Positions 3,850 to 9,149 of a stretch of 37,240 nucleotides of DNA are shown here, piece by piece. The stretch lies in NCBI GenBank assembly GCA_028278105.1, contig JANQEX010000006.1, positions 1 through 37,240 on the forward strand. The letters run 5' to 3'. Source of the stretch: Alphaproteobacteria bacterium (GTDB lineage Bacteria > Pseudomonadota > Alphaproteobacteria > UBA9219 > RGZA01). A program made the translations under genes and the position numbers. The notes below the pieces were generated by a model. It saw only the letters and a list, made by a program, of their open reading frames with translations. It was not told the origin of the DNA and ran no database searches. Every line of letters starts with the position of its first letter. Position 1 is the first letter of the stretch.

Positions 3850-4596
3850 TCACGCTTTCCCGGCAACGGCCTTCTTGACCGCCTCGTGCTCGGCGCAGGC
3901 GCCGGCGATGGAGCAATGGGCGCAGGTGAAGCGCTCCAGGCGCGGCAGGTCCACGAACGCCACCCGCGCGCCCTTGACGTCCAGTCCGTGCGGCCGCAGG
4001 CGGGCCAGCGCCCGCGAGAAGGTTTCCAGCTCGATGCCAAGGCGCGAGGCGATCAGGGTTTTGCTGTAGGGCAGGGTGAAGCCGTTGGGATCAAAGCCGT
4101 AAAGCGCGCAAAGCCGCTCGAAGAAGCAGGCCACCTGCTGCGGCGCGGTCATGGTGGCCTTGTGCTCCACCTCCAGCGCCCGGATATGCGCCCGCCGGGA
4201 CAGCAGCGCCAGAAGATTCAGGGCGAAACCGGGATTCCGCCGCGCCGCGTCCACCAGCCAGCCCGCGGAGAATTCCAGAAGCCGCGCCTCCTTCACCGCC
4301 AGCGCGTTGAAAAGACGGGCCGCCGCCGGACGCAGCACGTCGGTTTCGCCCAGCATGTCGCCCGCGATCAGCACCTCGGCCGTCACCTCGCGGCCCTCGG
4401 CGCTTTCCCGGAAAAGCTGCACCGCCCCGTCGGTGACGATATAGACATGTTCAACCGGGTCGCCGTAACGGAATACGTGATGGCCCGCCGGCAGGGTCCG
4501 CGGCTTTCCTTCCGCGAGAAGCGCGGCGCAGGTCTCGGCGGCGAGCCCCTCGAAAAGAGGCTTCCGGCAAAGCGCGGCGGAAAGGGATTGAGCCAT
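3850..4596 (-). CDS. Crp/Fnr-family regulator with C-terminal cysteine cluster
   Basis: A 248-residue protein. A cyclic-nucleotide-binding-type beta-roll covers about residues 12-120 (AGHHVFRYGDPVEHVYIVTDGAVQLF), then a dimer helix and a winged helix-turn-helix at about 175-203 (LPYSKTLIASRLGI, ETFSRALARL). Cysteines 225, 228 and 234 (CAHCSIAGAC) form a C-x2-C-x5-C motif like the iron-sulfur motif of E. coli FNR, but at the C-terminus, where Bacillus Fnr carries its cluster ligands. A redox or oxygen sensor is therefore inferred. The ATG at 4596 is preceded by GGGGGA at good spacing; a GTG at 4629 is less likely. The target genes are unknown; the regulator is divergent from metXW. Confidence 0.85.
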   Translation of the reverse strand: MAQSLSAALCRKPLFEGLAAETCAALLAEGKPRTLPAGHHVFRYGDPVEHVYIVTDGAVQLFRESAEGREVTAEVLIAGDMLGETDVLRPAAARLFNALAVKEARLLEFSAGWLVDAARRNPGFALNLLALLSRRAHIRALEVEHKATMTAPQQVACFFERLCALYGFDPNGFTLPYSKTLIASRLGIELETFSRALARLRPHGLDVKGARVAFVDLPRLERFTCAHCSIAGACAEHEAVKKAVAGKA

Positions 4597-4662: not shown

Positions 4663-4767
4663 GGGGCGGAAGGGTCTTGAGGGCCGAAAGGGTCAACAAG
4701 GCATGGCGGACCCTCTTGCCCCTTCCGACCCTTTTGACCCTGCTTATGACCCTTTCGCCCCTCTTCC
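4663..4767. repeat. GGGTC-type degenerate hairpin (family A)
   Basis: The left arm AAGGGGCGGAAGGGTC... pairs in several registers with a right arm rich in TTGACCC and GACCC words. It lies between the divergent Crp/Fnr and metXW genes, so any metXW promoter and leader must pass through or around it. Confidence 0.75.
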
Positions 4768-4811
4768 TCATGCCGGTTGCCCCGGCGCGCGCAACAGGGC
4801 AGATTCGCACC

Positions 4812-6725
4812 ATGACCTTTCCATTCTCGTCCTTGCCTTCTCCCTCCCACGGGGATTTCGACCCCGCCGCTTTGCCCGGCCGGCGCGTGCGCATTCCGGG
4901 CCCGCTGAAGCTGGATTGCGGCGGGCATTTGCGCGATTACTGGATCGCCTGGCAGACCTACGGGCAACTGAACGCGGACAAAAGCAACGCCGTCTTCATC
5001 TGCCACGCGCTGACCGGCGACCAGTTCGTGGCCGAGAACCACCCCGTCACCGGCAAGCCCGGCTGGTGGGAGACGGTGGTGGGGGACGGCAAGGTGATCG
5101 ACACGCGCCGTTTCTTCGTGATCTGCGCCAACGTGCTGGGCGGCTGCATGGGCAGCGCGGGGCCGCGCACCATCAATCCCGCGACCGGCAAGCCTTACGC
5201 GCTGGATTTTCCGGTCATCACCATCAACGACATGGCCCGCGCGCACAAGGCGCTGATCGACCATCTGGGCATCCCGAAGATATTCCTCATCATCGGCGGA
5301 TCGATGGGCGGCATGCAGGCCCTGGCCTTCGCCGCCCTGTTCCCGCGGGCCACCGGAGCCTGCGCCGCCATCGCCACCGCCGCCCGCCATTCGGCCCAGA
5401 ATATCGCCTTCGGCGAGGTGGGGCGGCAGGCCATCCTGGCCGATCCCGCCTGGAGCGGCGGCGGCTATATCGTCCAAAAAACCCTGCCGTCGGCGGGGCT
5501 TTCCGTGGCGCGCATGGCCGCCCATATCACCTATCTGTCGGAAGCCGCCTTGCAGCGCAAGTTCGGCCGCAAGCTGCAGGACCGCCCGGCCGTCTCCTTC
5601 GGCTTCGACGCCGATTTTCAGGTGGAATCCTATCTGCGCCATCAGGGTCACAGCTTCGTGGCGCGCTTCGATCCCAATTCCTATCTCTACATCACCCGCG
5701 CGATTGATTACTTCGACCTTGCCGCCGATCTGGGCGGCGGCCGGCTGGCCGATGCCTTCGGCGGCACGCCGACGCGTTTTTTCGCGTGCAGCTTCACCAG
5801 CGACTGGCTCTACCCCACCTCCGAGTCCCGCCATCTGGTGCGGGCGCTGGCCGCGGCGGGCGCGCCGGTTTCCTTCGTGGAGATCGAAAGCGACAAGGGC
5901 CACGACGCCTTTTTGCTGGACGAGCCGGAATTTCACCGGCAACTGGCGGGGTTTATTCGGGGGTGCGAGGAGATGCAGGTTCGAAGGGACGAAGGTGCGA
6001 AGGTTCGAGGGTGCGAGGGTTCGGGGGGTCGCGGGTTCGGGGACACGAGGGTGCGTGGGCGTGAAAGTTCGCGGGGATTTTTGTTTCCTCGAACCTCCGA
6101 ACCCCCGAACCCGCGAACCCCCGAACCCCTCGCCCCCGAATTGCAACTCATCGCCAACATCATTCCCGCGAACGCCCGCGTGCTGGACGTGGGCTGCGGC
6201 GACGGCGTGCTGCTGGACTGGCTGCGCGTCCACAAGGACGTGACCGGCTGCGGGCTGGAGATCGACCGCAAGCGGGTGGAGGACGCCATCGCCCGCGGCC
6301 TTCCGGTCATTCAGGGCGACGCCGACACCGACCTTTCCACCTATCCCGACGACGCCTTCGATGTCGCGGTCCTGAACCGCACGCTGACCGAGTTGCGCGA
6401 GCCGCTGGAGGTGGTCCGGGCGCTGCGCCGCCTGGCTTTCCGCGTGATCGTGGCGGTGCCGAATTTCGCCCATTGGCGGGCGCGCCTCAGCCTTGGGGTC
6501 CGGGGCCGCGCGCCGGTGACGCCGGCCCTGCCCCATGAATGGTATAATTCCCCCAATATCCGCTTCTGCGCGCTGGACGATTTTGCCGGTTTCGCCGAAG
6601 AGGCGGGGATGCGCGTGGAGCAGGCGCTGTTTCTGGACGCCGCGGACCGTCCCCTGCCGCCGCTCCTGCGCCCGGCCGCCAATCTGCTGGCGGCGTCGGG
6701 GTTATACGTGCTGGAGAGGGTGTAG
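4812..6725 (+). CDS. metXW: MetX-MetW fusion (homoserine O-acyltransferase plus MetW)
   Basis: A 637-residue protein. Residues 1-383 form an alpha/beta-hydrolase of the MetX type, which acylates L-homoserine from an acyl-CoA in methionine synthesis. The nucleophile is Ser164 (GGSMGGMQ), with the Asp of SDWLYP and the His of GHDAFLL. Residues about 441-637 are MetW, with SAM-binding-type motif VLDVGCGDG and family motifs [10 protein letters not shown] and [12 protein letters not shown]. metX and metW are normally separate adjacent genes. Here residues about 384-440 are encoded by a GGTTCG-type repeat, giving an Arg/Gly- then Pro-rich linker with no stop. The ATG at 4812 fits the start of MetX proteins; upstream in-frame sequence is only repeat. 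An ATG at the linker (5973) could allow separate MetW translation, but its ribosome site is too close. Confidence 0.88.
5980..6135. repeat. GGTTCG-type degenerate hairpin inside metXW (family B)
   Basis: The purine arm is an imperfect tandem array of about 9-nt words (AAGGTTCGAGGGTGCGA and similar). The complementary pyrimidine arm has CGAACC words (CCTCGAACCTCCGAACCC). Both arms are translated in frame as the linker between MetX and MetW. A second copy of this family lies just after the gene at 6726-6972. Confidence 0.85.
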
Positions 6726-6972
6726 GGTTGGAGGTTCGGAGGTGCGGAGGTTCGGAGGTGCGAAGGTTCAGAGGTTCATGGGTTCAAAGGTTCAGGGATT
6801 TGGAGGTCAACGGTGCAGGGGGCCGAAGGTTCGGAGGTGCGAAGGTACGAGGGTACGTGGGTGCGAAGGGTCGGAGGTTCATAGGGACAAAGGTTCAAAG
6901 GAAAGGGTTTTTCACTCTGAACCCCTGAACCTTTGAACCTTCGCACCTCCGACCCTCCGAACCTTCGAACCT
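6726..6972. repeat. GGTTCG-type degenerate hairpin between convergent metXW and ackA
   Basis: About 170 bases of degenerate GGTTCGGAGGTGCGAA words are followed by the complementary CCTTTGAACC/CCTCCGAACC arm. It fills the whole gap between two convergent stop codons, so it probably works as a bidirectional terminator. It is the same family as the in-frame linker of metXW. Confidence 0.85.
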
Positions 6973-6975
6973 TTT

Positions 6976-8199
6976 TTACGCGCCATTAAACAGCGAACTG
7001 GACGGGGCCGGTTTCTGCGACGCGGCGATCACCGAAGCGTCCATCTCCGGCGCCGTATCGCCCGCGCCGCCGCCGGGGGCATCGCCCGCGCGCGCGGCGA
7101 TGTCCTGCACATGCTGGGCGATCACGCGCTCCTCGTTCGTGGGGATGACCAGCACCGGGAAGTCGCCCAGGAATTTCAGGCGGTCCAGAACCTTTTCGCG
7201 CACGGGCGCGGCGTGCTCGCCGATGCCGGCGGTGAACACGAAGGCGTCGAGGCCGCCCAGGGACACGGCCAGCGCCGCCGCGTGCTGCGCCACCTTGAAG
7301 CAGTAATGCTCAATGGCGAATTTGGCCCGCGGATCGCCGCTTTCCAGAAGCGTTTTCACGTCGTTGCTGATGCCCGACATGCCCTTCAGGCCGGATTCGC
7401 TGACCAGCAGCTTCTCCGCGGCGTTGATGGTCATGCCCAGCTCGCGCACGCAATAGATCACCACGGCGGGATCGATGAGGCCGCTGCGGGTGCCCATGGG
7501 GGGGCCTTCCAGGGCGGTGAAGCCCATGGAGCTGTCCACGCTCTTGCCGTCTTGCATGCCGCACAGGCTGGAGCCGTTGCCGAGATGCGCGGCGATCACG
7601 CGGCCCCTGGCGAGGTCGGGATGGTCCTGGCGCAGGCGGGCGGAAATCCACTCATAGGAAAGGCCGTGGAAGCCGTAACGGCGCACGCCTTTCTCGCGCA
7701 GGGACGCCGGCAGCGCGTAGCTGGTGTAGAGCGGCTCGCAGGCGGCGTGGAAGCCGGTGTCGAAGCAGGCCACCTGGAGAATGCCGGGCTTCAGCCTGGC
7801 GATCACCTCGATCGCGCCGAGATTATGCGGCTGGTGCAGCGGCGCGAGATGCGTGAAGCTTTTCAGGCGGGCGATCACGGCGGGATCCACCCGGACCGGG
7901 GCGGCGAATTCGCCGCCGCCATGGACCACGCGATGGCCCACCGCCACCAGTTCCGAACCGCCGGGGCGGCCCGCGATCCAGCGCAAAAGCATGGCCAGCG
8001 CCTCTTCATGGGTGCTGCCGTCGGCCATTTTGTTTTCGGATTTCGAGCCGGAGCGCTCGTCGACGGCCTTGAACACGGGCGTCGTGCCGATGCCGGAAAC
8101 GCTGCCACGGGCCAGCAGGGGCATGGCGTCGCCGGCGCCGAACAGGCTGAATTTGAGGCTGGATGAACCGGAATTCAGGACGAGGACGACATCGCTCAT
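6976..8199 (-). CDS. ackA: Acetate kinase
   Basis: A 407-residue cytoplasmic kinase that interconverts acetate plus ATP with acetyl phosphate plus ADP. Family motifs are all present: the N-terminal phosphate-binding NSGSSSLKFSLF, VVHGGGEF, the adenosine loop HLGNGSSL, GTRSG and FTAGIGEHA near the C-terminus. The length fits the family (about 400). An extra C-terminal tail rich in Ala/Pro/Ser (about 30 residues) follows the last conserved region. The ATG at 8199 has a GGGAG ribosome site and overlaps the stop of the phosphotransacylase gene (ATGA), so the two enzymes form an acyl-CoA to acyl phosphate to acid plus ATP module. Confidence 0.95.
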   Translation of the reverse strand: MSDVVLVLNSGSSSLKFSLFGAGDAMPLLARGSVSGIGTTPVFKAVDERSGSKSENKMADGSTHEEALAMLLRWIAGRPGGSELVAVGHRVVHGGGEFAAPVRVDPAVIARLKSFTHLAPLHQPHNLGAIEVIARLKPGILQVACFDTGFHAACEPLYTSYALPASLREKGVRRYGFHGLSYEWISARLRQDHPDLARGRVIAAHLGNGSSLCGMQDGKSVDSSMGFTALEGPPMGTRSGLIDPAVVIYCVRELGMTINAAEKLLVSESGLKGMSGISNDVKTLLESGDPRAKFAIEHYCFKVAQHAAALAVSLGGLDAFVFTAGIGEHAAPVREKVLDRLKFLGDFPVLVIPTNEERVIAQHVQDIAARAGDAPGGGAGDTAPEMDASVIAASQKPAPSSSLFNGA

Positions 8200-9149
8200 T
8201 TTATTCTCCCTTCTCTGCGCGCCCTGGCCAGCTTGGCCGCCACGGCGCATGACAATAAACGGGTGTGCGGGGAATCCGCACGGCTGGTCAAAATAATGGG
8301 AACGCGCGCGCCCAGCACGATGCCGGCGGCGCGGGCGTGGCCGAGGAAGGTCAGCTCCTTGGCGAGAATGTTTCCGGCCTCAAGATCGGGCACCATGAGA
8401 ATGTCGGCGTCGCCCGCCACCGGCGAGACGATGCCCTTTTCCTTGGCGGCGGCCGGGGAGATGGCGTTGTCGAAGGCCAGCGGGCCGTCCAGGATGCCGT
8501 CGGCGATCTGGCCGCGGTCCGACATCTTGCACAGGGCGGCGGCGTCCAGCGTGGCCTGCATCTTGGAGTTGATGGTTTCCACTGCGGCCAGGATCGCGCA
8601 TTTCGGCTTCTTGTCCAAGCCAAAGACCACCCGCCACAGGATGATGGCGTTCTGGAGAATATCGGCCTTCTCCTCCAGCGCGGGATTGATGTTGATCGCG
8701 GCGTCGGTGACGATGAAGGGCTTGGGATAGCTTCCCACTTCCATGATATAGGCGTGGCTGATGCGGCGCTCGGTGCGCAGGCCCGAATGGCGCGACACCA
8801 CCGCGCTCATGATCTCGTCGGTGTGGCCGGCGCCTTTCATCAGCGCGTCGGCCTCGCCCTTGGCGCACATCTCGGCGGATTTCTCGGCGGCGGCATGGCT
8901 GTGCTCCACATCCACGATCTGCCAGTTGCCGATATCGATGCCGGCGCCCTCGGCGGCCTGGCGGATGCGGTCTTTCGGCCCGACCAGAACGGGCGTCAGA
9001 AGCTTTTCGCGCACGGCGTCGGAGATGGCCTCAATCGCCGCCGGCTTCACGGGATGCACCAGCGCCGTGCGGATGGGCTGGTTCTCGCGCGCGACTTCGG
9101 CGATGGTGCGGGCGGGATCGACATTGGCGGGGAGCGGCGCGGATGACAC
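8196..9149 (-). CDS. pta: Phosphate acetyl/butyryltransferase
   Basis: A 317-residue enzyme of the PTA_PTB family, converting acyl-CoA plus phosphate to acyl phosphate plus CoA. Recognisable segments are LTPVLVGP near residue 55, ADALMKGAGHTDEIM, GSYPKPFIVTDAAININP and the C-terminal VPIILTSRADSPHTRLLSCAVA. The protein is the short, single-domain form and lacks the extra N-terminal domains of long Pta and the MaoC-like domain of the bifunctional form. The start is GTG at 9149 with AAGGAG 7 bases upstream. Coupling to ackA favours acetyl-CoA as substrate, but butyryl-CoA cannot be excluded. Confidence 0.9.
   Translation of the reverse strand: MSSAPLPANVDPARTIAEVARENQPIRTALVHPVKPAAIEAISDAVREKLLTPVLVGPKDRIRQAAEGAGIDIGNWQIVDVEHSHAAAEKSAEMCAKGEADALMKGAGHTDEIMSAVVSRHSGLRTERRISHAYIMEVGSYPKPFIVTDAAININPALEEKADILQNAIILWRVVFGLDKKPKCAILAAVETINSKMQATLDAAALCKMSDRGQIADGILDGPLAFDNAISPAAAKEKGIVSPVAGDADILMVPDLEAGNILAKELTFLGHARAAGIVLGARVPIILTSRADSPHTRLLSCAVAAKLARARREGRIK

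Follow-up and report, generated by a model that had tools for sequence, protein, structure and literature searches.

An FNR-type cysteine motif at the C-terminus of an alphaproteobacterial Crp/Fnr regulator: a probable oxygen-labile stand-in for FNR

P0002, a Crp/Fnr-family regulator encoded in the analysed DNA (the window, 37,240 nucleotides of contig JANQEX010000006.1; the genome is G000 below), is probably an oxygen-labile [4Fe-4S] protein that reads FNR boxes in place of canonical FNR; its cysteines are the basis on which the cluster is predicted. The gene occupies positions 3850–4596 on the minus strand, with an ATG at 4596–4594 and an unbroken frame of 248 amino acids plus stop; the coordinates in the earlier note were correct and the strand was left unstated there. 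A cNMP_binding-type sensory beta-roll (residues 33–114, positions 4255–4500, minus strand; PF00027, E 1.5e-16) and an HTH_Crp_2 DNA-binding domain (residues 160–223, positions 3928–4119, minus strand; PF13545, E 4.5e-9) both scored above the Pfam cut-off, which places the protein in the Crp/Fnr superfamily. The chain beyond the HTH domain is FTCAHCSIAGACAEHE. Directly after the HTH match comes CAHCSIAGAC (C225-x2-C228-x5-C234; residues 225–234, positions 3895–3924, minus strand), so that the FNR-like C-x2-C-x5-C motif described earlier at the C-terminus was borne out; the remaining cysteines are C10, C23, C157 and C163. Structure prediction of P0002 alone gave a pLDDT of 48.7 and was unusable, and for this reason no geometry and no fold search were drawn from the model.

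The homologue searches covered 59 relatives, the order's 33 genomes and a draw of 385 genomes from the class; C-termini were read in the homologues fetched as loci, a part of the class-wide matches. No relatives were found in viral contigs, and the named genomes that were searched gave one weak match only. In the tree, P0002 belonged to a clade of 13 proteins from nine genomes (G000, G014, G032, G334, G150, G142 and G175 with one each, G108 with two and G260 with four) with an SH-aLRT support of 100. Shuffling the residues of P0002 100,000 times produced C-x2-C-x5-C anywhere in 0.30% of the shuffles and, within the final 38 residues, in 0.029%; conservation across the clade is the stronger test of the motif. 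Its loss from orthologues had been named in the earlier note as the observation that would count against the motif, and the comparison showed the opposite: the three tail cysteines were intact in 12 of the 13 proteins, with the x5 spacing in all 12, and Ser followed the second cysteine in ten of the 12, as in CQDCSISQLC of E. coli FNR, which is also present in the solved FNR 5cvr, the structure against which the E. coli FNR sequence used here was matched. The sole exception was L066 (G142:C2:77976-78623), in which the tail was kept and all three cysteines were gone. Similar tails were found in the more distant proteins L069, L071, L090, L099 and L191, and among 20 loci fetched from 398 genomes drawn from the phylum, cysteine tails were restricted to members of the class. 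That the tail cysteines are functionally irrelevant and kept by descent only is highly improbable: L066 and a tail-less sister clade show that tail or cysteines may be missing, but fixed spacing in all clade members except one, despite an identity of 28–54% to P0002, argues against it.

With E. coli FNR, P0002 shares the C-x2-C-x5-C spacing, the C-S-I core and the E-x2-S-R recognition helix. The E. coli motif is N-terminal, whereas in P0002 the stretch ahead of residue 33 has just two cysteines, C10 and C23, and Leu stands at the place aligned with C122 of E. coli FNR. P0002 scored 44.3 bits with the NCBIfam Fnr model (cut-off 228), 78 with FtrB (cut-off 211) and 39.7 with FixK (cut-off 300). 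For the comparison with Bacillus Fnr, a B. subtilis sequence was used whose D141, C227, C230 and C235 fit the numbering in PMC3520743. Fnr of B. subtilis and B. cereus has a C-terminal [4Fe-4S] cluster held by three cysteines and Asp141 (PMC3520743), and the parallel with Bacillus Fnr drawn earlier was supported in that the tail cysteines aligned one to one (C227, C230 and C235 with C225, C228 and C234 of P0002), after the HTH domain in both. The spacing is C-x2-C-x4-C in Bacillus Fnr and C-x2-C-x5-C in P0002, the place of Asp141 is taken by His145, and the B. subtilis recognition helix E-S-V-N-R differs from E-T-F-S-R of P0002. L187, a homologue from Bacillota, had Asp in the D141 column and no tail. 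The topology, which had been called unusual, is so relative to E. coli FNR, but C-terminal clusters are known in Gram-positive Fnr (PMC12937710); outside Gram-positive bacteria, no Fnr with a C-terminal cluster was recognised in the titles and abstract beginnings of open-licence papers. Judged by sequence, P0002 is like Bacillus Fnr in the position of the motif, like E. coli FNR in the motif itself and the predicted DNA site, and a member of neither.

Candidates for a fourth ligand were compared over 65 homologues of at least 200 amino acids among the loci fetched by then that matched model A1 with an E-value of 1e-15 or lower, shorter sequences being left out: 16 with C-x2-C-x5-C, two with a partial motif (L068 and L112, a separate group in these counts and assigned to the 3-Cys type in the tree test), 12 with a 4-Cys tail and 35 without such a tail; L191 was found later and stands outside the 65. 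The earlier note had pointed to cysteines in the 156/157 region and at 163, and P0002 does have C157 and C163. C157 (positions 4126–4128, minus strand) occurred in all 16 C-x2-C-x5-C proteins, both partial ones, none of the 12 with a 4-Cys tail and seven of the 35 tail-less ones, and by eye also in L191; six of these seven fell within one clade of eleven whose other five lacked it. His at 145 (positions 4162–4164, minus strand), aligned with D141 of B. subtilis Fnr, was found in 12/16, 2/2, 1/12 and 0/35, respectively. H237 (positions 3886–3888, minus strand), three residues past C234, is a third candidate, with His at this place in ten of the 16 tail-bearing proteins. On these data C157 is the first choice as putative fourth ligand and H145 the second, because C157 was present in every 3-Cys-tail homologue read and absent from all 4-Cys-tail sister proteins; the main ground is that a 4-Cys tail would need no body cysteine and has none at 157. 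The association of both residues, C157 and H145, with the tail rested on three independent pairs and was not significant on the tree, a number of pairs that cannot reach significance. H145 as an obligatory ligand was weakened by Gln in 4/16 tail-bearing proteins and Ser in L191 (by eye), and it was kept as second. C163 was rejected, being not tail-specific (present in 25/35 tail-less homologues and missing from 3/16 tail-bearing ones), so that, of the cysteines proposed earlier as fourth ligand, C157 was supported as a possible one and C163 was not.

The recognition helix E191-T-F-S194-R195 (positions 4012–4026, minus strand) is of the FNR type E-x2-S-R, the residues with which FNR reads the FNR box, and E191, S194 and R195 were invariant in the 13 clade proteins and in all 16 C-x2-C-x5-C homologues. 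A search for TTGAY-N4-RTCAA in 12 clade-member loci (104,371 bases) found 14 sites; TTGAY ranked first among all 60 orders of its half-site letters, for which the mean was 1.05 sites with TTGAY itself included, and two near variants, able to overlap TTGAY sites, scored 10 and 9. Genes for Hsp20, Usp and host attachment recurred near clade members other than that of G150, and 12 of the 14 boxes preceded these genes or the regulator gene or lay at their starts. Positions were judged from the longest ORFs given by a simple caller; L100:4656, L102:4902 and L103:7252 fell within the first codons of such an ORF and are upstream boxes only on the condition that translation begins at a later codon. 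Boxes preceded the regulator itself in L094, L102, L103 and L106, Hsp20 in L094, L100 and L103, Usp in L094, L097 and L103, and a host-attachment gene in L096 and L100; the remaining two were L094:5068 and L104:5714, and L093, L095, L101 and L105 contained none. At the L066 locus boxes remained upstream of the regulator gene, of Hsp20 and of Usp, so boxes can persist without tail cysteines; this protein is the strongest counter-case to the cluster reading.

In G000, ten TTGAY-N4-RTCAA sites were found, five of them inside coding ORFs, one upstream of nrdD (upstream piece TTGACTTGGATCAA) and one upstream of a malic enzyme-like gene (by eye). Only one of the ten stood before a classic FNR target, and the only perfect TTGAT-N4-ATCAA lay within a coding ORF. 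The 97 places in G000 that fit the box with at most one mismatch were discarded as evidence because, among the matches listed, TTGTTTTTAATCAA recurs like a dispersed repeat. This sequence was seen in many copies over many G000 contigs and is probably part of such a repeat. An FNR box upstream of nrdD was shared by G000, G014 and G032. Nineteen of the 33 order genomes carry nrdD; the upstream regions of 18 (the piece from G023 had no start) and of G150 were scanned, and 17 of the 19 contained a perfect TTGAY-N4-RTCAA, as against 0.15% of shuffled upstreams, with no box in G009 and G011. Sites of the TTGAT-N4-ATCAA type at likely targets, nrdD and the genes of the clade loci, are a further likeness to E. 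coli-type FNR. Since nrdD boxes also occurred in order genomes whose homologues have a 4-Cys tail or none, they support an anaerobic role and the specificity for this DNA site, but say nothing for the tail cluster.

The reading of P0002 as a stand-in for FNR is supported by the lack of any other Crp/Fnr protein found in G000, where PF13545 had one match, P0002, and PF00325 had none. Among the 21 HTH_Crp_2 proteins above cut-off in the nine clade genomes, all of which were read (L132 with its front in another frame), none had an N-terminal C-x2-C-x5-C. L066 was the only HTH_Crp_2 match of G142. Further Crp-type proteins of G108, G175 and G260 had the recognition helix R-S-Y-I-A-R or E-T-V-A-R, which leaves the clade members as the sole E-x2-S-R proteins among the HTH_Crp_2 matches of these three genomes; additional E-x2-S-R or A-x2-S-R proteins were present in G150, G334, G014 and G032, those of G150 and G032 including 4-Cys-tail ones. 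G001–G004, of the same family as G000, had neither an A1 match nor nrdD, and G000 has both. In G001 a PF00325 match was seen in an 87-aa frame. G260 held the clade regulator in four copies within one genome.

C-x2-C motifs are often zinc-binding, and the tail could be a zinc structural knuckle or a thiol/disulfide redox switch, with the beta-roll sensing something else. This is rather unlikely: it fits the boxes retained by the cysteine-less L066 and the 35 of 65 homologues without such a tail, but the spacing and the Ser after the second cysteine are those of FNR, the position is that of Bacillus Fnr, the box-bearing target nrdD encodes an anaerobic enzyme, and the searches of G000 gave no second Crp/Fnr protein.

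FNR clusters also react with NO, and P0002 might be a Dnr/Nnr-like NO sensor that uses either haem bound in the beta-roll or a cluster that becomes nitrosylated, with nrdD induced under nitrosative or denitrifying conditions; we consider this unlikely. The best solved relatives by sequence include 3fx3/3h3z and DNR (3dkw, E 2e-20), near over the protein body, and in P. aeruginosa Dnr drives nrdD from a box of this kind (PMC5645315). However, the 227-residue chain of 3dkw stops one residue past the place aligned with P0002 residue 223, so 3dkw has no counterpart of the conserved C-terminal cysteine tail, and no NO-reductase or denitrification gene was recognised by eye among the ORFs of the clade loci.

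As an oxygen-labile [4Fe-4S] regulator, P0002 would act as the usual Crp/Fnr dimer, and its E-x2-S-R helix, from the conserved residues and the boxes, would read TTGAY-N4-RTCAA. Without oxygen, C225, C228 and C234, together with C157 in the first helix of the DNA-binding domain or H145 in the hinge, would hold the [4Fe-4S] cluster, which would fasten the tail onto the DNA-binding domain, setting this domain for binding; oxygen would destroy the cluster and release the domain. Such a switch would be nearer to that of Bacillus Fnr, which has no monomer–dimer switch, than to that of E. coli FNR. A likely target in G000 is nrdD, for the oxygen-sensitive ribonucleotide reductase, which would be switched on when oxygen is absent; in relatives, likely targets would also be the genes for Hsp20, Usp and host attachment and that of the regulator itself. 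If this is true, one scaffold with a single DNA code would carry the FNR cysteine motif at the N-terminus in some proteins and at the C-terminus in others, a natural contrast for studying how a cluster can switch a Crp/Fnr protein. The Cys-less L066 and the sister clade with the 4-Cys tail are natural variants at hand. P0002 would then be a candidate oxygen regulator for genomes without a recognisable FNR, and annotation by N-terminal cysteines alone would overlook such sensors.

The 4-Cys-tail sister clade consisted of 12 proteins with LCxFCD-x6-C(C)...C, i.e. C-x2-C-x7-C and a later Cys. Six (L010, L011, L015, L016, L018 and L019) were of a long form with open frames of 511–549 aa, the N-terminal extension of which weakly resembled the NIT nitrate-sensing domain in two of the four scanned, with sub-threshold E-values of 2e-4 and 3e-3; L012–L014, L017, L020 and L022 were without it. 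A gene of this clade lay on one contig with nrdD in G015, G020, G022, G024 and G026. It is possible, though we put this forward tentatively, that the FNR switch was reinvented at the C-terminus in this class, perhaps twice (a 3-Cys tail with C157, and a 4-Cys tail, C-x2-C-x7-C...C, without it), both replacing canonical FNR at nrdD boxes. In G150, L132 (G150:C7:55828-55986) encodes a Crp/Fnr protein with a 4-Cys tail, close to nrdD (G150:C7:57800), and has its front in another frame, either a broken gene or an assembly error. A tail-less clade of the same order (L005–L009, L035 and L057–L060) ended in a conserved FVYGPLxxKY-like peptide, and in nine of its ten members A-x2-S-R replaced E-x2-S-R.

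The clade member of G150 lies downstream of genes for a cbb3 subunit III, a FixG-type ferredoxin and an HMA-domain P-type ATPase, a neighbourhood that resembles that of FnrL/FixK; alphaproteobacterial regulators of the FixK/FnrL type are likewise found beside cco genes. A Rhizobium Crp/Fnr homologue between ccoS and ccmE had no C-x2-C-x5-C tail. In Rhodobacter, FnrL recognises (T/C/A)TGA-N6-TCAA, and the genes under its control include ccoN and uspA (PMC4634722).

In the window, P0002 is next to thrE and a metX-metW ORF, and 2.4 kb off are genes for acetate kinase (positions 6976–8250, minus strand; PF00871), a gene found also in L097, and a phosphate acetyl/butyryltransferase (phosphotransacetylase; positions 8196–9149, minus strand; PF01515), given here as context only. 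The window contained no perfect FNR box, none with up to two mismatches at the P0002 promoter or ahead of the phosphotransacetylase gene, and none with up to one mismatch at thrE, the metX-metW ORF or the acetate kinase/phosphotransacetylase genes. Degenerate repeats with a period of eight bases were seen at 5953–6135 and 6716–6971, AGGTTCGG-like and then CGAACCTC-like, respectively; the first array lies inside the ORF 4677–6725, where it joins a metX-like abhydrolase part in frame to MetW.
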